Of a stretch of 64,000 bases of DNA, positions 20,625-30,553 are shown piece after piece (position 1 is the stretch's first letter; each line of letters begins with the position of its first letter). The notes beneath the pieces were generated by a model. The model saw only the letters and a list, made by a program, of their open reading frames with translations. It searched no databases and was not told where the DNA came from. The position numbers and the translations under genes were made by a program. The DNA is from Peptostreptococcus equinus. GTDB lineage: Bacteria; Bacillota; Clostridia; Peptostreptococcales; Peptostreptococcaceae. The stretch spans positions 248,001-312,000 of the forward strand of contig NZ_CP114052.1 of assembly GCF_027125355.1 (NCBI RefSeq). The letters are read 5' to 3'.

Positions 20625-21722
20625 TTGGACGAATATTATATGAATATGGCTATAGACTTAGCAAAAAAAGGAATAGGAAAGGTAAATCCAAATCCTTTAG
20701 TAGGTGCTGTAATAGTTAGAGATTCAGAAATATTATCTTGTGGGTACCATAAAGGATTTGGTGAATATCATGCGGAGAGAGAAGCTATAAATAGTGCCAA
20801 AGTATCTTTAGAAGGAGCAACTATTTACGTAAATTTAGAACCTTGTTGCCATCATGGAAAAACACCGCCATGTACTGATGTAATAATTGAAAGTGGAATA
20901 AAAAAAGTGGTAATAGGGTCATTGGATCCTAATTTACTAGTAGCAGGTAAAGGAGTTAAACTTTTAGAAAATGCTGGTATAGAAGTGGTATGTGGTGTGT
21001 TGGAAGATGAATGCAATAAATTAAATCAAGTATTTTTTAATTATATAAATAAGGAAAAGCCATATATTATTTTAAAGTATGCTATGACTATGGATGGTAA
21101 AATCGCTTGTTATAGTGGAAAATCTCAGTGGATAACAGGTAAAATAGCAAGAAATAAAGTACATGAAGATAGGAAAAAGTATATGGCCATAATGGTTGGA
21201 ATTGGAACAGTTTTGTCAGATGATCCCACTCTTAACTGCAGATGCGAAGATCCTGTACATCCTATTAGAATAATTTGTGATTCTAATTTAAGGATTCCAA
21301 TAAAATCAAATATAGTTAAAACGTCCAATGATTACAAGACAATTATAGTCACAAAATCTAAGGATGTTAAAAAAATAAAGGAATTAGAAGAGTATGGATG
21401 CCAAATATTACAACAAACAAATGATGGAGATTCAATAAATTTAAAATCTCTAATTGTCGAACTAGGCAAGATGGGAATAGATTCTATTGTGATAGAGGGT
21501 GGTTCAGGATTAAATTGGTCTGCTCTAAATTCTAATATAGTAGATAAAGTTCAAATATATATAGGAAATAAAATTTTTGGAGGTTTAAATGCTAAGAGTC
21601 CAGTTGGAGGAAGTGGTATAGAAAATCCAAATAAAGCATTTAATTTATCTAGACCTGAAATTACTATTTTAGGTGATGATATATTGTTAGAAAGCGAGGT
21701 TTTTGGATGTTTACAGGAATAA
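20625..21722 (+). CDS. ribD: Bifunctional riboflavin deaminase/reductase
   Basis: RibD carries out deamination and reduction of the pyrimidine intermediate in riboflavin synthesis. Residues 1-145 are the cytidine-deaminase-like domain: HAEREAI, then EPCCHHGKTPPCTD supply the zinc site. Residues 146-365 are the reductase domain, with AMTMDGKIACYSGKSQWI, VGIGTVLSDDP and IEGGSGLNWSAL. The start is TTG at 20625, with GGAGGT at 20612-20617. It is the first gene of ribD-ribE-ribBA-ribH and is controlled by the FMN riboswitch. It overlaps ribE by 16 bases. Confidence 0.96.
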   Translation: MDEYYMNMAIDLAKKGIGKVNPNPLVGAVIVRDSEILSCGYHKGFGEYHAEREAINSAKVSLEGATIYVNLEPCCHHGKTPPCTDVIIESGIKKVVIGSLDPNLLVAGKGVKLLENAGIEVVCGVLEDECNKLNQVFFNYINKEKPYIILKYAMTMDGKIACYSGKSQWITGKIARNKVHEDRKKYMAIMVGIGTVLSDDPTLNCRCEDPVHPIRIICDSNLRIPIKSNIVKTSNDYKTIIVTKSKDVKKIKELEEYGCQILQQTNDGDSINLKSLIVELGKMGIDSIVIEGGSGLNWSALNSNIVDKVQIYIGNKIFGGLNAKSPVGGSGIENPNKAFNLSRPEITILGDDILLESEVFGCLQE

Positions 21723-22381
21723 TTGAGGAAATAGGAACTATTAGAAATATACAAAAAGGACCTAAATCACAGATTTTATACATAGGAGCAAAAACAGTGT
21801 TAGAAGATGTAAAATTAGGTGACTCTATAGCAGTAAATGGTGTATGTTTAACAGTTACAAAATTTATAAAAGATGAATTTCAAGTCGATATAATGCATGA
21901 AACAATGGATAGATCATCCTTGGCTAATATATCTATAGGTTCAAAAGTAAATCTAGAAAGGGCTATGCAATTAGGAGGAAGATTTGGAGGACACATTGTA
22001 TCCGGTCATATAGATGGATTAGGAATAATAAAATCTATAAAAAAAGACGATAATGCAATATGGTATCAGATAGAAACTCAAAAGCAGATAATGAAGTATA
22101 TTATCTTAAAAGGGTCAATCACTATAGATGGTATAAGCCTTACTGTAGCAAAGCTTGAAGAGGATAATTTTAGCGTTTCTATTATACCTCATACATCTAC
22201 ATATACTACTTTAAACCATAGAAAAGTAGGAGATAAGGTAAATTTGGAAAATGACTCAATAGGAAAATATATAGAAAAATTATTAAATTTTCAAGTAGAT
22301 GCAATGGAGAGTATAAAAAATCAAAACTTAAATAATAAATCAAATATAAATATGGAATTTTTACTAAAAAATGGTTTTTAA
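21707..22381 (+). CDS. ribE: Riboflavin synthase, alpha subunit
   Basis: Riboflavin synthase dismutates two lumazine molecules to riboflavin. The protein consists of two homologous lumazine-binding repeats, each opening like MFTGIIEEIGTI. Key segments are DSIAVNGVCLTV and GGHIVSGHIDG in the first repeat and SITIDGISLTVAKLE with VSIIPHTSTYTTL in the second. At 224 residues it is slightly longer than usual because of an Asn/Lys-rich tail of about 25 residues. The start lies inside ribD (16-base overlap), so translation is coupled. Confidence 0.95.
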   Translation: MFTGIIEEIGTIRNIQKGPKSQILYIGAKTVLEDVKLGDSIAVNGVCLTVTKFIKDEFQVDIMHETMDRSSLANISIGSKVNLERAMQLGGRFGGHIVSGHIDGLGIIKSIKKDDNAIWYQIETQKQIMKYIILKGSITIDGISLTVAKLEEDNFSVSIIPHTSTYTTLNHRKVGDKVNLENDSIGKYIEKLLNFQVDAMESIKNQNLNNKSNINMEFLLKNGF

Positions 22382-22393
22382 TAGGAGGAAAAA

Positions 22394-23593
22394 ATGTTTG
22401 AATTTAACAGTGTAAAAGAAGTTTTAGAAGATTTAAAAGCAGGTAGGTGTGTGTTGGTAACGGATGATGAGGATAGAGAAAATGAAGGCGATTTTATATG
22501 TGCTGCTGAGTTTGCCACTACTGAAAATGTGACATTGATGGCAGTAGAAGGAAGAGGTCTTATATGTATGCCTATGAGTGCAGAATATTGTCAAAAATTA
22601 GGATTACAGCAGATGGTAACTACCAATACAGATAATCATGAGACAGCATTTACAGTTTCTATTGACCATGTAAACACTACTACAGGTATATCTGCTGAGG
22701 AGAGGGGATATACTGCTAGAGCTTGTGTAGATGAAAATGCAAAAGCACAGGATTTTCGTAGACCAGGACATATGTTTCCACTTAAAGCTAAAAAAAATGG
22801 AGTATTAGAAAGAAATGGTCATACTGAAGCTACAGTTGATTTGCTGAGATTAGCTGGACTAAAGGAAGTTGGACTTTGTTGTGAAATAATGAGAGAAGAT
22901 GGAACAATGATGAGAACGCCAGAGCTTATAGAATTATCAAAGAAATTTGGTTTAAAATTTACAACTATAAAAAAATTACAAGAATATAGAAAAAAGAATG
23001 AAAAACATGTAGAAAGTTCAAGTGTGGTAAATATGCCTACTAAATATGGAGATTTTAAGGCTCATGTGTACATAAATAAAATAAATGGAGAACATCATAT
23101 TGCACTCGTAAAAGGGGATATAGGTGATGGTAAAAACCTACTTTGTAGAGTTCATTCAGAGTGCTTGACAGGAGATGTATTTGGCTCTTGTAGATGTGAT
23201 TGTGGAGAACAATTTGCAGCTGCTATGAAACAAATACAGAAAGAAGGAAGAGGAATATTATTATATATGCGTCAAGAGGGAAGGGGAATAGGTCTAGTTA
23301 ATAAATTAAAGGCATATGCCCTACAAGATCAAGGAATGGATACATTAGAAGCAAATCATGCTCTAGGATTTGCTGGTGATTTAAGAGAATATTTTATAGG
23401 GGCTCAGATTTTGGAAGATTTGGGAGCAAAAACACTTAGGCTTCTTACAAATAATCCAGATAAGGTATATCAACTATCTGACTACGGTATGGAAATTATT
23501 GAAAGAGTACCAATTGAAATACAGGCAAATGAGCATGATGAATTTTATCTACATACTAAAAAAGAAAAAATGGGTCATATACTGGCTCTATAA
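22394..23593 (+). CDS. ribBA: Bifunctional 3,4-dihydroxy-2-butanone-4-phosphate synthase / GTP cyclohydrolase II
   Basis: A two-domain protein that provides both precursors of lumazine. Residues 1-205 are the RibB part: [32 protein letters not shown] and [11 protein letters not shown]. Residues 206-399 are the RibA part. Its zinc cysteines are in [20 protein letters not shown], with [17 protein letters not shown] and [23 protein letters not shown] precedes the ATG, 12 bases after ribE. Its length (399) is normal for the fused enzyme. Confidence 0.97.
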
Positions 23594-23643
23594 TTGAAAG
23601 TTTGACATAATATAATATTTGAAAAATAAATGGAGGAATTAAA

Positions 23644-24105
23644 ATGAAAGTATTTGAAGGTAATTTAGTTGCAAAAGAAGCCAAAATTGGTATTGTAGCA
23701 GGAAGATTTAATGAGTTTATTACATCAAAGTTGATAGATGGATCATTAGATGCACTAAGAAGACATGATGTAGCAGATGAGAATATAGATTTAGCTTGGG
23801 TACCAGGTGCATTTGAAATACCACTTGTAGCCTCAAAAATGGCGAAAAGCGGAAAATATGATGCTGTGATTTGCTTAGGTGCTGTAATACGTGGAAATAC
23901 TTCACATTATGACTATGTTTGTAGTGAAGTTTCAAAGGGAATTGCTCATGTATCTTTGGATACAGGTATACCAGTAATGTTTGGCGTTGTAACTACTGAA
24001 AATATTGAACAGGCTATAGAAAGAGCGGGCACAAAAGCTGGAAATAAAGGATATGATGTAGCTGTAGGGGCTATAGAAATGATTAATCTAATAAATAACA
24101 TATAG
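23644..24105 (+). CDS. ribH: 6,7-dimethyl-8-ribityllumazine synthase
   Basis: RibH joins the butanone phosphate and the pyrimidine to form lumazine, and assembles into large hollow or pentameric particles. It has 153 residues, the usual length. Signatures are [46 protein letters not shown], and [28 protein letters not shown] lies a few bases before the ATG. It is the last gene of the riboflavin operon. An IS relic lies just beyond, apparently within the terminator that follows. Confidence 0.97.
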
Positions 24106-24357: not shown

Positions 24358-24888
24358 TTATTCTTTTTCTTCAAAATCCTTGTACATAAGTGAAGGTTGT
24401 ATACCCTTGTTATGCTGGTATTTTCCACTTGAATAAAGATCGTATTCACCAAGTATATCATGATAATATATTTGGCAAATTTGTACATTTGGATAGATTC
24501 TTATAGGCTGAACGCAGAATATCTCAAGCGTCCAATAGCCAGCAAAGCCTATATCTCCAAATCCTGCCGTAACATGTATAAATAAACCTAGTCTACCCGT
24601 TGAAGATCTACCTTCTAACATAGGTACGAATTTATTTGTACTAGTAAATTCATTAGTCCTACCTAAATATAATTTATTTGGTTCTAATAGAAGACCTTCT
24701 TTAGGAATGACGATTTTTTTAGTTTTATTTAGAATTTTCATGTCTAACTCGTCATTTTCATAGACTAATAATTCGTTTCCTAGTGTCAGATTGTAGCTAT
24801 TAGGATTTATATTTTTTTTATCAAAAGGCTCTATGATAATATTTTTATTTTCTATATTTTTTAGGATTTCCTTTCCTGATAAAATCAT
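24358..24888 (-). CDS. dcd: dCTP deaminase
   Basis: Dcd converts dCTP to dUTP (or dUMP in bifunctional forms), supplying dTMP synthesis. It has 176 residues. The family signature is EGRSSTGRLGLFIHVTAGFGDIGFAGYWTLEI, containing the conserved RSS and the catalytic Glu. YNLTLGNELLVY and LEPNKLYLGRT are also typical. The ribosome site is GGAGG on the minus strand. It is convergent with the rib operon, and the IS relic lies immediately after its stop codon. A dUTPase gene lies about 5 kb away, so both dUTP-handling steps are present. Confidence 0.93.
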   Translation of the reverse strand: MILSGKEILKNIENKNIIIEPFDKKNINPNSYNLTLGNELLVYENDELDMKILNKTKKIVIPKEGLLLEPNKLYLGRTNEFTSTNKFVPMLEGRSSTGRLGLFIHVTAGFGDIGFAGYWTLEIFCVQPIRIYPNVQICQIYYHDILGEYDLYSSGKYQHNKGIQPSLMYKDFEEKE

Positions 24889-25068: not shown

Positions 25069-25470
25069 ATGTTAGAAGTAGGCATAAAACACGAAGAAAA
25101 ATCAAAGGTAGATAATACAAATACAGCAGCTGCAGTAGGTAGTGGTGGATTAGATGTATATTCGACTCCATCTATGATTGGACTTATGGAAATGACTTGT
25201 AAATTCTGTGCACAGAAACATTTAGAAGATGGACTAGGAACTGTTGGAATTTCCGTAAATATTAAGCATAAGGCAGCTACACCAATAGGTATGAATGTAA
25301 GATGTGAGTGTGAATTAGTAGAAATAGATAGATCCAGATTGGTCTTCAAGGTTACATGCTATGACGAGCTAGATTTGATTGGTGAAGGAACTCATGAAAG
25401 ATTTATTATAGAAAATGATAAATTTCTTGCTAATGTAAATGCTAAAATTGAAAAAGCAAAAAATAAATAA
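25069..25470 (+). CDS. Hotdog-fold thioesterase (FlK-like)
   Basis: A 133-residue single-domain protein resembling the fluoroacetyl-CoA-thioesterase-like (FlK) family. It has the pattern STPSMIGLMEMTCKFCAQKHL, with TVGISVNIKHKAATPIGMNV and GEGTHERFII. These are the usual hotdog segments, including the His of the family's GxHxR motif. I place the start at the ATG at 25069 because AGGAGG (25057-25062) lies between it and the in-frame ATG at 25054. It probably hydrolyses a small acyl-CoA in the cytosol, but the substrate is not readable. A terminator follows directly. Confidence 0.75.
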   Translation: MLEVGIKHEEKSKVDNTNTAAAVGSGGLDVYSTPSMIGLMEMTCKFCAQKHLEDGLGTVGISVNIKHKAATPIGMNVRCECELVEIDRSRLVFKVTCYDELDLIGEGTHERFIIENDKFLANVNAKIEKAKNK

Positions 25471-25511: not shown

Positions 25512-25709
25512 TTTTTGTTGCATTTGCAATTTATTTTTTCATCTTTAGATTATAATATATATTATATAAAGCAAAATTAAAAAATTATAATATCAAGATA
25601 TATAAATTTTATATAAAGAATATAATTAAAAAAAAACATTAAAATTAAAAGTTAAAAAATAAAATCACAAATTTAAATAATATATTAAATTAATAAAGAG
25701 GAGCAAAAG

Positions 25710-25775
25710 ATGAATAAATATTTTTCAATAAATGACAAAATAGCAGATATAATAGAAAAAATCCTAAAGCATTAG
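25710..25775 (+). pseudogene. 5' fragment of the frameshifted binding-protein gene
   Basis: An ATG at 25710 with a good ribosome site (AGAGGAG, 25697-25703) opens the frame MNKYFSINDKIADIIEKILKH and stops at 25773. Restoring one A to the six-A run at 25756-25761 changes the end to IIEKNPKALDFLISNGFENL. This joins it smoothly to the long frame downstream. The repaired start matches a DUF1858-like domain. I therefore read 25710-26935 as one gene with a one-base deletion in a homopolymer. Confidence 0.75.
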
Positions 25776-25831
25776 ATTTTCTAATCTCAAATGGTTTTGA
25801 AAATCTAAAAGATAGAAAGTCTTTTGAAATA

Positions 25832-26935
25832 ATGGCTAATAAAGTCAATCTTTCTACGGCACTCAAGATGAAAAAAATGAATGTTGAATTGTATGAAAAA
25901 AGATTTCTAACATTTTTAGAAAGTCAAAGCAATAGTGTGGATAATCTATTAATAGAGGATAATAAAAATAAAAAAGCAGATATAAATGTTGAAGGAGTTC
26001 TACCTTGTCCAATTAGAATACCTCTTCTAGAAAGTTTTGAATTTTGGTTAGAAGATAATAAATCCAAATTTGACTATTCTATAGGATATGAACTCCAATC
26101 AGCAAATTTAGGTCTAGATTGGATAAAAGATCAAGTAAAAACTGGAAATCCTAATATGATACCAGATGTTTTGATGTCAGCAGGCTTTGATTTATTCTTT
26201 GATAAAGAGTTAATGGGTCAGTATATGGAGAATGATATATTTGAAGCGGCCACAAATGAGTTTAATAAGGATTTTTCTAATGAATATCTAGATCTTAGAG
26301 ATCCACAGAAAAAATATCTAATTACAGGTGTTGTGCCAGCTGTTTTTTTAGTAAACAAAAAAGAGTTAGGAAATAGAAAGTTTCCAAAAAACTGGACAGA
26401 TATACTTAGTCCAGAATTTGAAGATTCAGTTGCCATACCTATGGGAGACCTGGATTTATTTAATGCATTAGTAGTAAGTTTGTATAAAGAATATGGTATG
26501 GAGGGAATTTCGAATCTTGCAAGATCATATATGAAGAGTCTTCATCCAGCACAAATGGTAAAAGCAAAAAGTACAGGTAAACACAAAGAACCAGCTGTAA
26601 GTATAATACCGTATTTCTTTACTCAGATGATACAAGGAACAGACACTGTAGCTGTATGGCCAGAAGATGGGGCAGTAATTAGTCCAATATTTATGATGTC
26701 AAAGAAATCAAATAAAGAAAAGGCACAACCGATAATAGACTTTTTTATGTCAAAAGAAGTCGGAAAAATATTTTCAGCAAATGGAAAATTCCCTTCAACT
26801 AACAAATATGTAGATAATGGTTTAGAAAAGGAAAAAAAATTTAAATGGGTAGGTTGGGACTTTATTCATTCAACTGATATAGGAGCTCTAATTAGAGAAA
26901 TTGAGAATAAATTTAATAGAGAAATAGCACAATAA
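25832..26935 (+). CDS. Cytosolic solute-binding-protein-like protein (main frame of a frameshifted gene)
   Basis: The in-frame open region encodes 367 residues, but the gene most likely begins at 25710 (see the 5' fragment). The repaired protein of about 408 residues has an N-terminal DUF1858-like domain (about 1-70). An ABC-transporter-type substrate-binding fold follows (about 95-400), with segments such as LPCPIRIPLLESFEFWL, MSAGFDLFFDKELMGQY and GVVPAVFLVNKKELG. There is no signal peptide or lipobox, so it should stay in the cytosol, which is unusual for this fold. No ribosome site precedes 25832, supporting the frameshift reading. It is the first gene of a set with a P-loop GTPase-like gene and an ABC ATPase gene. 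Confidence 0.7.
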   Translation: MANKVNLSTALKMKKMNVELYEKRFLTFLESQSNSVDNLLIEDNKNKKADINVEGVLPCPIRIPLLESFEFWLEDNKSKFDYSIGYELQSANLGLDWIKDQVKTGNPNMIPDVLMSAGFDLFFDKELMGQYMENDIFEAATNEFNKDFSNEYLDLRDPQKKYLITGVVPAVFLVNKKELGNRKFPKNWTDILSPEFEDSVAIPMGDLDLFNALVVSLYKEYGMEGISNLARSYMKSLHPAQMVKAKSTGKHKEPAVSIIPYFFTQMIQGTDTVAVWPEDGAVISPIFMMSKKSNKEKAQPIIDFFMSKEVGKIFSANGKFPSTNKYVDNGLEKEKKFKWVGWDFIHSTDIGALIREIENKFNREIAQ

Positions 26936-26960
26936 CATATGAATATAGAAAGGGATAAAT

Positions 26961-27656
26961 ATGAATCTTATAGTATTTTCTGGACCGCCTTCATCAGGAA
27001 AGACAAGTGTAATATTAAAAACAATAGAAGCTTTAAAAGGGCAAGATATAAAAGTAGGAGTAGTAAAATTTGATTGTCTTTATACAGATGATGATATACT
27101 TTATGAAAAGGCTGGAATACCAGTAAGAAAGGGTTTATCTGGAGCACTTTGTCCAGATCATTTTTTTGTTTCTAATATCGAAGAAGTAGTTAAATGGGGT
27201 ATTGATAATAAATTAGACTTATTGATAACAGAATCGGCGGGTTTATGCAATAGATGTTCTCCTTATATAAAGGAAATAAAAGGAGTTTGTGTAATAGATA
27301 ATCTATCAGGGATTAATACACCCAAAAAAATAGGTCCTATGCTAAAGGCTGCAGATATTGTGGTGATTACAAAGGGAGATATTGTATCTCAAGCTGAAAG
27401 AGAAGTATTTTCTTCAAAGGTAAACTCTGTCAATCCTACAGCAATAACGATGCATGTAAATGGGCTTACAGGACAAGGCACTTATGAACTAAGTACACTT
27501 TTAATGGACGAAGAAAAGGAAATTGATAGTGTAAAGGGTATGAAATTAAGATTCCCTATGCCATCGGCTTTATGTTCTTACTGTCTAGGAGAAACTAGAA
27601 TAGGAGAACAATTTCAAATGGGAAATGTTAGAAAAATGGATTTGGAGGATAGATAA
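26961..27656 (+). CDS. P-loop GTPase-like protein of HypB/UreG/CobW type with CxxC motifs
   Basis: A 231-residue SIMIBI-class P-loop protein. Walker A is SGPPSSGKTS at about 6-15. A switch-like segment reads VGVVKFDCLYTDDD. A DLLITESAGLCNRCSP motif follows at about 77-91, and the base-recognition loop is ITKGDIV. Two cysteine pairs (CNRC near 87 and CSYC near 207) could bind a metal or iron-sulphur cluster. HypB, UreG and CobW proteins use GTP to deliver metals or assemble metal cofactors, so a metallocentre role is likely, though unproven. It is 25 bases after the binding-protein gene and shares a base with the ABC gene. Confidence 0.75.
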   Translation: MNLIVFSGPPSSGKTSVILKTIEALKGQDIKVGVVKFDCLYTDDDILYEKAGIPVRKGLSGALCPDHFFVSNIEEVVKWGIDNKLDLLITESAGLCNRCSPYIKEIKGVCVIDNLSGINTPKKIGPMLKAADIVVITKGDIVSQAEREVFSSKVNSVNPTAITMHVNGLTGQGTYELSTLLMDEEKEIDSVKGMKLRFPMPSALCSYCLGETRIGEQFQMGNVRKMDLEDR

Positions 27657-28651
27657 TGAAAGAAGTTGAAATACTAAAAATTAATGAGCTTTTAGAAAAG
27701 TATCCTTTTGTGGAATCGTATTTTGAAGAAAACAAATTAGATATTAGTGGATACGAAAATAAAACTTTTATTGAATTTTTAGATCATTTTACCTTGGAAG
27801 AGGTTGAAGATATGGCTCTGGATTTAAATAAAAATTTAATAGATTTGCAAGAGTATATTAGACAAATGAAATCGTTTTTAGGTATAGAAGTTTCAAACTC
27901 TGTAGATGTACTGACAATACTTCCTGGACAAGATAAATTGGGGAATCCAGAAGGTTTTGAAAGGTTAGACATAAAAAAATCCGAAATGATAGCTATAGTA
28001 GGACCGACAGGGTCAGGAAAATCTAGACTACTAGCAGATATTGAATGGACCGCACAAAATGATACACCCACTAAAAGAACAATACTTATTAACGACCAAT
28101 ATCCAGATAAAAAATGGAGATTTTCATCTAATAATAAGTTAGTAGCCCAATTATCTCAAAATATGAATTTTGTCATGGATTTATCAGTAAAAGAATTTTT
28201 AGAATTACATGCAAGAAGTAGAATGGTAGAAGACATAGAAGAGACCGTAGAAAAAATATTAGAAGAAGCAAATAAATTAGCTGGTGAAAAGTTTAGAATA
28301 GATACACAAATTACAGCTCTTAGTGGAGGTCAGTCTAGAGCTTTGATGATTGCTGATACTGCAATACTTTCATCTTCACCAATAGTTTTAATAGATGAAA
28401 TAGAAAATGCAGGAATTGATAGAAAAAAAGCCTTAGATTTACTCATTTCATCAGATAAAATAGTTCTAATAGCTACTCATGATCCCAATCTTGCACTATT
28501 AGCAGATAAGAGAATAGTAATTAATAATGGTGCAATCATAAATATTATAAATACTTCGGTAAATGAAAAAAATAAATTAATAGAATTAGAAGATATGGAT
28601 AGAAAAATACAAGAATTAAGAAGAGCTTTAAGATATGGTGAAAGTTTATAG
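27656..28651 (+). CDS. Soluble ABC ATPase with DUF1858-like N-terminal domain
   Basis: A 331-residue protein. Residues 1-75 (INELLEKYPFVESYFEENKL...) resemble the DUF1858-like start of the binding-protein gene two positions upstream. Residues about 80-300 are an ABC ATPase: GPTGSGKS, ALSGGQSRAL, PIVLIDEIENAG and ATHDPNL. The usual Asp-Glu-Pro after Walker B reads DEIE, an atypical variant. No permease gene accompanies it, so it is not a standard transporter. Its ATG overlaps the stop of the previous gene (ATGA-type), showing coupled translation. It is the last gene of the set. Confidence 0.8.
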   Translation: MKEVEILKINELLEKYPFVESYFEENKLDISGYENKTFIEFLDHFTLEEVEDMALDLNKNLIDLQEYIRQMKSFLGIEVSNSVDVLTILPGQDKLGNPEGFERLDIKKSEMIAIVGPTGSGKSRLLADIEWTAQNDTPTKRTILINDQYPDKKWRFSSNNKLVAQLSQNMNFVMDLSVKEFLELHARSRMVEDIEETVEKILEEANKLAGEKFRIDTQITALSGGQSRALMIADTAILSSSPIVLIDEIENAGIDRKKALDLLISSDKIVLIATHDPNLALLADKRIVINNGAIINIINTSVNEKNKLIELEDMDRKIQELRRALRYGESL

Positions 28652-28878: not shown

Positions 28879-30081
28879 ATGAATACAGTTTCTGTAGAGA
28901 TATTAGAAGATTTATACTATATGGGTGTAAATGACAGAGATACTAATTTATTTGAAAATATGTGGCCATTACCAGAGGGAGTTGCGTATAATTCATATTT
29001 AATAACTGATGAAAAAACAGCGCTTTTAGATACAGTAAAAATAACTAAGGTGGACGGATTTCTTGAAACTTTAAGAAATAATTTAGGAGAAAGAGACCTT
29101 GATTATTTAGTAGTTCATCATATGGAGCCAGATCATTCAGGCTGCTTCAAGACAATAATGGATATATATCCAAATGTTACAGTTGTAGCCAACAAGAAGG
29201 CTAGAGCAATGATGAATGATTTCTTTGGTTTTGAACCAAAGAATTTTTTAGAAGTAAAAGATGGAGATACTTTAGAATTAGGTAAGAAGACACTTACATT
29301 TGTGAATACTCCTATGGTACATTGGCCAGAATCAATGGTTTCTTATGAAACTTCAGAAAAAGTATTATTCTCACAAGATATATTTGGTGGATTTGGTGCT
29401 TTAAATGGTACAGTATTTGATGATGAAATGAATTTTGAATTTTTTGAAGATGAGTTTAGAAGATATTATTCAAATATAGTAGGAAAATATTCTAAGCAAG
29501 CTGCTAGAGCACTAGAAAAAGTGAAAGCTTTAGATATAAAGGTTATTTGCCCAGTACATGGTGTAGTATGGAGAAAAAATCCACAGAGAATAATTGATGA
29601 ATATGTTAAATATGCTAACCAAGTTAATGAAGAGGGTGTAGTAATAGCATATGGAACAATGTATGGAAATACAGAAAAGATGGCAGATCAATTAGCAAGA
29701 TTTATAGCAGAAGAAGGAATAAAAAATGTAAGAGTATTTGATGTGTCTAAAACTAATGTATCTTATATATTAAGTGAAGCATGGAAGTACAAAGGACTTA
29801 TATTAGGAAGTTGTACTTATAATAATGATGTATATCCGACTATGAATCAGTTATTGTATACATTTGAAATGAACAAGATGAAAAATCATGCATTAGGTAT
29901 ATTTGGATCACATGGATGGAGTGGCGGTGCAATAAAAGAATTAACTCGTTTCGCTTCAGAGGGTGGAGATTTCCAAGTAATGCCAACTGTGGTAGATGTA
30001 AAAGGAACTATGGAAGATAATGATATAGAATCATTGAGACAATTAGCCAAGGAAATAGCTGAAGCTGTAAAGGAAGCTTAA
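28879..30081 (+). CDS. Flavodiiron protein (FprA-type oxygen or nitric oxide reductase)
   Basis: A 400-residue two-domain enzyme that reduces oxygen to water (or NO to N2O) in anaerobes. Residues 1-250 are a beta-lactamase-like diiron domain. Its iron ligands include the HxExDH motif (His81, Glu83, Asp85, His86) and later His residues in MVHWPESM and CPVHGVVW. Residues 255-400 are a flavodoxin domain with the FMN loop YGTMYGNTEKMADQLA and GSCTYNNDVYPTM. GGGAG lies upstream of the ATG. There is no rubredoxin domain. Four bases separate it from the dUTPase gene, so the two may be cotranscribed. Confidence 0.95.
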   Translation: MNTVSVEILEDLYYMGVNDRDTNLFENMWPLPEGVAYNSYLITDEKTALLDTVKITKVDGFLETLRNNLGERDLDYLVVHHMEPDHSGCFKTIMDIYPNVTVVANKKARAMMNDFFGFEPKNFLEVKDGDTLELGKKTLTFVNTPMVHWPESMVSYETSEKVLFSQDIFGGFGALNGTVFDDEMNFEFFEDEFRRYYSNIVGKYSKQAARALEKVKALDIKVICPVHGVVWRKNPQRIIDEYVKYANQVNEEGVVIAYGTMYGNTEKMADQLARFIAEEGIKNVRVFDVSKTNVSYILSEAWKYKGLILGSCTYNNDVYPTMNQLLYTFEMNKMKNHALGIFGSHGWSGGAIKELTRFASEGGDFQVMPTVVDVKGTMEDNDIESLRQLAKEIAEAVKEA

Positions 30082-30085
30082 CATT

Positions 30086-30553
30086 ATGAAGATAAGAGGT
30101 TTTGAATTAGTTTCAGAAGAACATAGAAAGCATCCAAATTTACAAATAAATTTACCTCAAAGAGGAACGGCAAAATCCGCAGGATATGATATTTGTACGC
30201 CAGTAGATATAAAAATAGGTCCAAGAGAATGTTCTGATGTGATTTTTACGGATATAAAATCTTATATGCAAGAAGATGAAGTTTTGTGTACACATGTAAG
30301 AAGTTCGATTGGTATGAAAAAAGGATTAGCACTTGCAAATATCACTGGAATAATAGATTCAGACTATTATTCAAATCCAGGTAATGATGGTAATATTGGT
30401 TTTAAACTTAGAAATTTAACTGACCAAGAAGTAGTAATTCAGGCGGGAGAAAGAGTAATACAAGCGATATTTACTAAATACCTTATAAGTGATGATGATT
30501 GTCCAAAGTCACAGGAAAGATTAGGTGGTGTAGGCTCTACGGGAAAAAAATAA
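30086..30553 (+). CDS. dut: dUTP diphosphatase
   Basis: A 155-residue trimeric-type dUTPase that removes dUTP and yields dUMP. The five conserved motifs can be traced: SAGYDICTP (motif 1), HVRSSIGMKKGLAL (motif 2), GIIDSDYYSNPGNDGNIGFKL (motif 3), AGERVIQAIF (motif 4) and RLGGVGSTG (motif 5). Motif 3 has insertions relative to typical Dut, as seen in some Firmicutes. It starts four bases after the flavodiiron gene. It complements dcd at 24.4 kb. Confidence 0.9.
   Translation: MKIRGFELVSEEHRKHPNLQINLPQRGTAKSAGYDICTPVDIKIGPRECSDVIFTDIKSYMQEDEVLCTHVRSSIGMKKGLALANITGIIDSDYYSNPGNDGNIGFKLRNLTDQEVVIQAGERVIQAIFTKYLISDDDCPKSQERLGGVGSTGKK

Follow-up and report, generated by a model that had tools for sequence, protein, structure and literature searches.

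A conserved trio of a binding protein, a G3E NTPase and a soluble ABC ATPase associated with Hcp and the nitric oxide response

Described systems related to the trio

A soluble ATP-binding cassette (ABC) ATPase without a permease is found in the SUF system, which serves iron-sulfur (Fe-S) clusters, and the RIC/ScdA/YtfE proteins function in Fe-S repair after nitrosative stress. Described here is a trio of genes from Peptostreptococcus equinus encoding a binding protein, a HypB-like G3E NTPase and a soluble ABC ATPase, located in a 64,000-base stretch of DNA referred to as the window (248001-312000 in a single-contig genome of 1,995,029 bases). An earlier sequence-only reading had proposed a cytosolic machine that handles a metal or cofactor, and this was retained in that the trio was conserved, permease-free, cytosolic by sequence and equipped with an NTPase rich in metal ligands. 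The nitric oxide (NO), Hcp and iron-sulfur context had been missed and is the main clue to function. The data strongly support that type A of the trio, defined below, belongs to the nitric oxide/Hcp response. With a probability of about 0.55, we consider the trio to be an NO-responsive cytosolic machine making, loading or repairing a complex Fe-S centre, with the hybrid Fe-S-O cluster of Hcp as the leading client.

Several described systems share features with the trio. SUF genes adjoin it in two loci (L032 and L079), although the trio proteins matched no SufB or SufD among the matches listed and the SUF genes of L032 form a separate set. The ScdA_N domain of RIC/ScdA/YtfE faintly matched the DUF1858 part of the binding protein in 8 of 26 members (best E 0.03), whereas no hemerythrin-like domain was found in the trio by Pfam. 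The SBP_bac_6 domain family is common to the binding protein and to binding proteins of the iron, phosphonate and pyridoxal phosphate (PLP) type, but unlike the usual members the trio's protein is cytosolic by sequence, carries DUF1858 at its N-terminus and is without a permease. HypB/HypA nickel delivery likewise relies on a G3E NTPase whose switch region has Cys/His residues nearby (PMC9164220), and a HypA-like zinc-ribbon protein adjoins the trio in many loci. In contrast to HypB/HypA, the NTPase of the trio has more Cys/His invariants, its gene is accompanied by those of a binding protein and an ABC ATPase, and nickel enzymes were mostly not found.

The HcpR regulon is related on the side of regulation, the published HcpR2 operator preceding both the trio and hcp. 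The trio was not named as a regulon member in the consulted text of PMC1274295 and PMC12915319, supplementary tables being outside this scope, and no such trio was mentioned in the consulted part of an operon survey of 1476 HCP genes, which grouped neighbours coarsely (PMC13056359). Published contexts of DUF1858 include proteins in an NnrR regulon, and DrpB with DUF2249 is located beside nitrate reductase (PMC6710368, PMC6282519), which fits the NO setting of the trio. No maturation factor for the Hcp hybrid cluster was named in the portions of the literature consulted. The parts of the trio are thus known families, and there is no known counterpart for its composition, location and regulon; the earlier statement that no system of this composition had been described was upheld within the open-access literature, with subscription papers and supplements outside the scope.

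The three packed genes reported on one strand at 25710-28651 were recovered as open reading frames at these positions, with a candidate operator upstream. Coordinates are those of the window.

25517 to 25530, no strand assigned: palindrome GTTGCATTTGCAAT, candidate trio operator, 180 bases 5' of the first ATG
25710 to 25775, plus strand: beginning of the binding-protein gene (DUF1858 part), in which the frame opened by the first ATG ends after 21 codons
25832 to 26935, plus strand: open part of the binding-protein gene, SBP_bac_6, 367 amino acids, no signal peptide
26961 to 27656, plus strand: HypB-like G3E NTPase with six invariant Cys/His residues
27656 to 28651, plus strand: soluble ABC ATPase whose helical-looking N-terminal domain weakly resembles DUF1858

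Conservation, operators and linkage to hcp

The gene-neighbourhood survey suggested with the sequence-only reading was undertaken using the best 80 of 407 NTPase relatives obtained by scanning species genomes, a selection in which close relatives are over-represented. The trio was conserved, with an NTPase 79-93% identical across the 80 loci, a binding-protein match in 78 and an ABC match in 79, and with gene order and strand kept. All three missing partners fell at contig ends, and the ABC gene of L038 was in two pieces. The loci span Bacillota groups, Treponema/Spirochaeta, Cloacimonadota, Fermentibacteria/Sabulitectum and Leptotrichiaceae, many of them from metagenome-assembled genomes. No permease common to the trio loci was found among 78 loci; a protein with at least four hydrophobic stretches occurred in the same-strand run in 16 of the 78, and these proteins differed in kind. 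The claim that no permease is encoded was confirmed, and a linked permease in relatives, named beforehand as evidence against the reading, was not a shared feature of these loci. Judged by sequence, the trio is cytosolic.

The commonest further neighbours were hcp and the gene of an 80-amino-acid CxxC/CxxC zinc-ribbon protein, which matched HypA below the cut-off (E 0.0019). Neighbours were counted by tblastn, since longest-reading-frame calls had missed some small genes. Among the 59 loci with at least 4 kb of downstream flank, 23 had hcp no more than 5 kb downstream on the same strand, and the zinc-ribbon gene was near the trio in 32 of 59 loci with enough flank. Across all 80 loci hcp was found in 28, the zinc-ribbon gene in 42 and either of them in 44. 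On a quick tree of 88 ABC proteins, which carried long-branch warnings, 35 rows were hcp-linked, 40 unlinked and 13 not judgeable, and hcp linkage changed state 10 times, at least five of them by well-supported branches.

After hcp had been seen beside the trio, upstream regions were searched for GTAACnnnnGTTAC, the motif of the predicted hcp regulator HcpR2 (PMC1274295). The 81 regions comprised 79 before the trio together with those of the window genome's own hcp and flavodiiron genes, and the shuffles used for the HcpR2 and genus-palindrome counts preserve base composition only. With at most one mismatch the motif was present in 38 of the 81 regions, all 38 before the trio (38 of 79), compared with 0.9 in shuffles. 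Control motifs HcpR1, CRP and FNR were present in 0, 2 and 4 of the 81 regions, respectively (shuffles 0.45, 0.95 and 3.15). Exact HcpR2 operators numbered 55 in the 80 loci (1,066,109 bases) against 1.0 in shuffles, of which 28 lay before the first gene of the trio, 22 before hcp and 5 elsewhere, including one just before a truncated hcp (L017); as the loci had been selected for the trio, the hcp-operator count also reflects linkage. Among 12 type-A loci of other genomes, 5 had an exact site ahead of the binding-protein gene (one of them, L095, is part of the earlier count too), and 3 of the 12 also had one ahead of hcp.

The window trio has no HcpR2 operator by the threshold used, and a different palindrome is common to the trio and hcp. 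When one mismatch was allowed, GTTGCANNTGCAAC matched the 64 kb at positions 25517-25530 and nowhere else (0.02 expected), and an exact copy of the palindrome lies upstream of the genome's own hcp (C1:367526-369133), about 91 kb away. Within the genus of the window, the regions upstream of the trio (6 of 7) and of hcp (4 of 4) contained GTTGYNNNNRCAAC when up to one mismatch was allowed; this consensus was derived from the same regions in which it was counted, and L001 had two mismatches to it (shuffle share 0.14). Other motifs have been described before hcp in some clostridia (PMC1274295), and the palindrome of the window is probably a local HcpR site. Crp/Fnr genes were near the trio in some loci, with no HcpR identity assigned to them. 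Taken together, the regulon link between the trio and hcp is strong.

Genomes were then compared for the presence of Hcp, with type A defined by an NTPase identity of at least 75% and with tests that ignore kinship. In a phylum sample of 199 genomes the NTPase family was found in 30 and type A in 7, and Hcp occurred in 29 of the 30 family genomes compared with 147 of 199 overall (P 0.0007). In a class sample of 146 genomes, all 9 type-A genomes had Hcp compared with 80 of 146 (P 0.0036). Six NTPase matches, three of type A and three at 65-66% identity, were obtained in a third sample of 200 genomes, all in genomes with Hcp. The linked arrangement with hcp was seen in 5 of 7, 2 of 9 and 2 of 6 genomes of the phylum, class and third samples, respectively, the last two being G158 again and G492. 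The trio comes with Hcp, but Hcp by no means generally comes with the trio.

Genes for Fe-S and iron metabolism also adjoin the trio in some loci. Directly downstream of the trio in L032 were SufC, SufB, SufD-like, SufS and SufU genes (NCBIfam; SufD below the cut-off), and in L079 the trio was beside the same clusters as the first four of these. The SufC cluster was found in 10 loci, and in the eight other than L032 and L079 it lies beyond opposite-strand genes that we take to be of riboflavin type. A FetB-like permease cluster was present in four loci (PF03649, tested in L066; TIGR00245 below the cut-off), L052, L066, L076 and L078, in which FetA/FetB-like iron-export genes and a HAD hydrolase gene are located 3' of the trio and zinc-ribbon gene. 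Regulatory and other genes among the 80 loci included Rrf2 (6 loci), Crp/Fnr (8 genes in 7 loci), DUF2249 (9) and cupin (4), with Pfam confirmation of one each of Rrf2, DUF2249 and cupin and with Crp/Fnr checked in other loci.

The proteins, the wider family and surrounding genes

The P-loop protein described beforehand as HypB/UreG/CobW-like with CNRC and CSYC pairs was verified by profile matches and by the presence of both Cys pairs. It matched cobW above the cut-off (E 5e-12, Pfam) and missed the HypB equivalog cut-off (50.3 bits versus 121.2, NCBIfam), and none of the window trio proteins matched an NCBIfam equivalog. Residues C64, H67, C96, C99, C205 and C208 were invariant in 18 of 18 aligned proteins (relatives 38-87% identical), with C64/H67 located in CPDH and C96/C99 in LCxRCSP. 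The G3E signature was complete, with a GPPSSGK P-loop, E91-S-A-G and TKGD, and E91, K138 and D140 were likewise invariant in all 18. COG0523 has been defined by a CxCC motif (PMC9164220), which was absent from the 18 aligned NTPases.

The binding protein of the window matched SBP_bac_6 (E 6e-82, Pfam), and DUF1858 together with SBP_bac_6 was found in 118 of the 120 homologues listed (of 2064 found); those lacking DUF1858 were the window's own form and one 372-amino-acid protein. The sequence-only reading had assigned DUF1858-like N-termini to both the binding protein and the ABC protein, and this is half shown because the ABC N-terminus was only faintly similar. The proposed docking of the two proteins through such domains would accordingly be speculative. 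In the binding protein the domain was present at the N-terminus in 26 of 26 members (best E 1e-19), with the L001 protein passing the gathering score of PF08984 (57.9-59.8 bits versus 32.2). The frame is continuous through DUF1858 in relatives and interrupted in the window between 25710 and 25832, where the sequence was used as it stands with no base restored, and a product starting at 25832 may be without most of the domain. The 367-amino-acid form was also listed (P0121) with a 7,405-base contig rather than the 1.995-Mb contig, which suggests that the interrupted form is present in a second assembly, and the interruption may therefore not be an error of one assembly.

The absence of a signal peptide from the binding protein held for the window and for relatives: N-terminal hydropathy in 75 proteins reached a maximum of 0.82 (15-residue window, first 45 amino acids) compared with 2.77 in a lipoprotein control, a check by hydropathy alone. 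A signal peptide in homologues, likewise named beforehand as evidence against the reading, was not seen in these proteins. Further inside, a 19-residue hydropathy window of at least 1.6 was seen in 17 of the 75. Solved relatives include putative aminoethylphosphonate-, PLP- and iron-binding proteins. Thirty type-A binding proteins share an invariant Cys (within LPCP; C105 in L001) that probably sits in the ligand cleft.

The ABC protein matched ABC_tran (E 2e-17, Pfam), and its Walker A, Q-loop, LSGGQ, DE and H-loop residues were invariant or nearly so in 33 aligned proteins, in agreement with the intact LSGGQ and Walker motifs reported beforehand. A Walker B end of DEIE had also been noted and is present within DEIENAGID; the catalytic DE pair itself is usual, and the unusual part is the IENAGID that follows. 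The N-terminus of this protein gave 13.1 bits against the DUF1858 gathering score of 32.2, sub-cut-off matches in 11 of 25 members (best E 0.0018) and an hhalign probability of 16%, then 50% with broader profiles, and four type-B/C-like ABC proteins had no DUF1858 match. The sufC family was not among the best 25 of its 147 NCBIfam matches.

More distant relatives were grouped by NTPase identity into type B (60-68%), type C (52-58%) and type D (38-43%). Type C mostly has a shorter binding protein after the ABC gene, and in L106-L108 its neighbours are importer genes, among them two permease-like ones, and a Crp/Fnr gene in divergent orientation. A PF04060-type Fe-S protein gene was present in 6 of 6 type-D loci (L105, L109-L113), in which the module consists of the ABC gene, the G3E NTPase gene and this gene; presumably corrinoid-type genes are near the copy in L109. 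The ABC gene adjoined the NTPase gene on the same strand in 30 of 30 placements examined, which suggests that this pair forms the core and that the cofactor or client may be determined by the third protein.

Around the window trio, a FlK-type thioesterase gene (25084-25470; PF22636, E 8e-38) lies just 5', and a FlK-like thioesterase gene was also upstream in five Peptostreptococcus loci (L001, L003, L004, L006 and L012). A flavodiiron-type protein with ODP and flavodoxin domains is encoded 3' of the trio (28879-30081). The flavodiiron family reduces NO or O2, and such a gene was near the trio in only 3 of 59 loci with enough flank (tblastn). Two genes of the dUTPase/dCTP-deaminase superfamily flank the trio region (24358-24888 and 30086-30553). 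Genes that we assume to be of riboflavin type are located at 20625-24105 and, on the opposite strand, near the trio in Lacrimispora-type loci such as L021 (L021:9778-13213); clusters 5-8, to which this label was given, occur in 10-11 loci, perhaps by chance or for flavin supply. In six Tissierellia-type loci (L013, L016, L025, L042, L047 and L053) what we take to be a chromate-transporter-like membrane protein is encoded upstream.

Possible functions of the trio

The reading of the trio as an NO-responsive machine for a complex Fe-S centre starts from its conservation, its cytosolic sequence, the linkage and operators shared with hcp, and the SUF and FetB-like neighbours, and from these we infer the biochemical steps. 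Iron or a small cluster would be bound by the invariant Cys/His residues of the G3E NTPase and passed on as nucleotide is hydrolysed, by analogy with HypB and nickel. The cleft of the binding protein may hold a small ligand, an iron complex or a cluster fragment, the soluble ABC ATPase could do mechanical work on the acceptor in the manner of SufC on SufB, and the zinc-ribbon protein, where present, might take a HypA-like role in the hand-over. The data point to iron-sulfur handling, and they speak against nickel and against transport.

A number of observations weigh against this reading. Hcp in 7 of 7 type-A genomes of the phylum sample was not a significant excess over 147 of 199 (P 0.12), and the third sample was uninformative because Hcp occurred in 171 of its 200 genomes anyway. 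Type A was found in 9 and Hcp in 80 of the 146 genomes of the class sample, and Hcp does not generally need the trio, as most Hcp-bearing genomes sampled were without it. A search of the window's genome for the zinc-ribbon protein, made without a positive control, gave no match, and no HcpR2 motif was seen in the loci of Peptostreptococcus, of Lacrimispora or of the Rrf2-linked group. A common regulon is also no proof of common chemistry. Finally, hcp was unlinked in 40 of the 75 countable tree rows, the window's genome included, which would also fit a trio acting in general repair of NO damage or iron salvage, stripping or rebuilding damaged Fe-S clusters in many proteins under a regulon common with Hcp instead of serving Hcp itself. 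Such a general role, which we regard as somewhat unlikely, would also agree with the location of the trio beside SUF without hcp in L032 and L079, with the FetB-like iron-export gene in 4 loci and with RIC being matched in just 2 of 15 type-A genomes (phylum and class samples, counted in type-A genomes alone). It is at odds with hcp being the commonest identified neighbour besides the zinc-ribbon gene and with hcp being preceded by 22 of the 27 exact operators that lie elsewhere than before the trio, a figure that partly reflects linkage in loci chosen by the trio. A partnership with RIC was put aside on the same count of 2 in 15.

The remaining explanations depart from iron-sulfur chemistry. 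A cytosolic sensing or signalling module, in which a small molecule sensed by the binding protein would be signalled onward by the two NTPases, is improbable: Crp/Fnr or Rrf2 regulator genes are near the trio in several loci, but the invariant metal-ligand set of the NTPase and the SUF and zinc-ribbon neighbours weigh against it. Insertion of nickel or another metal ion in the manner of HypAB or CooC, for carbon monoxide dehydrogenase (CODH) or [NiFe]-hydrogenase, would suit the HypB-like score of the NTPase (50 bits, cut-off 121) and the sub-cut-off match of the small protein to HypA. Among type-A genomes, however, CODH was present in 1 of 9 compared with 27 of 146 in the class sample, [NiFe]-hydrogenase family matches in 3 of 15 (phylum and class samples), one of them short and weak, and neither enzyme was found in the window's genome at the thresholds used; such clients were put aside on these counts and this role is very improbable. 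The binding-protein and ABC families are typical of importers and type-C relatives adjoin importer genes, yet an importer with its permease encoded elsewhere or lost is hardly credible given that no signal peptide was seen in the 75 binding proteins, that no permease was common to the 78 loci and that DUF1858 occupies the N-terminus where a signal peptide would be. A plain importer was put aside for want of both a signal peptide and a common permease.

A more specific form of the Fe-S machine can be put forward tentatively, namely a dedicated NO-induced machine for maturation and repair of the hybrid cluster, combining an ABC motor that has no permease with a G3E metallochaperone rich in Cys and His and with a cytosolic binding protein of periplasmic ancestry as cluster or iron carrier. 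The trio would then be the best-marked member of a wider family of cofactor machines built from a G3E NTPase and a soluble ABC protein, types A to D. The trio is widespread, yet it was labelled only as scattered 'ABC transporter' parts among the matches listed. To our knowledge, little has been established on how Fe-S centres attacked by nitric oxide are rebuilt in strict anaerobes, and the sequence-level link of the trio to an NO regulon and Hcp makes this question open to testing. If the proposed function is correct, a cytosolic binding protein and a soluble ABC motor would join the known ways of handling metal clusters.

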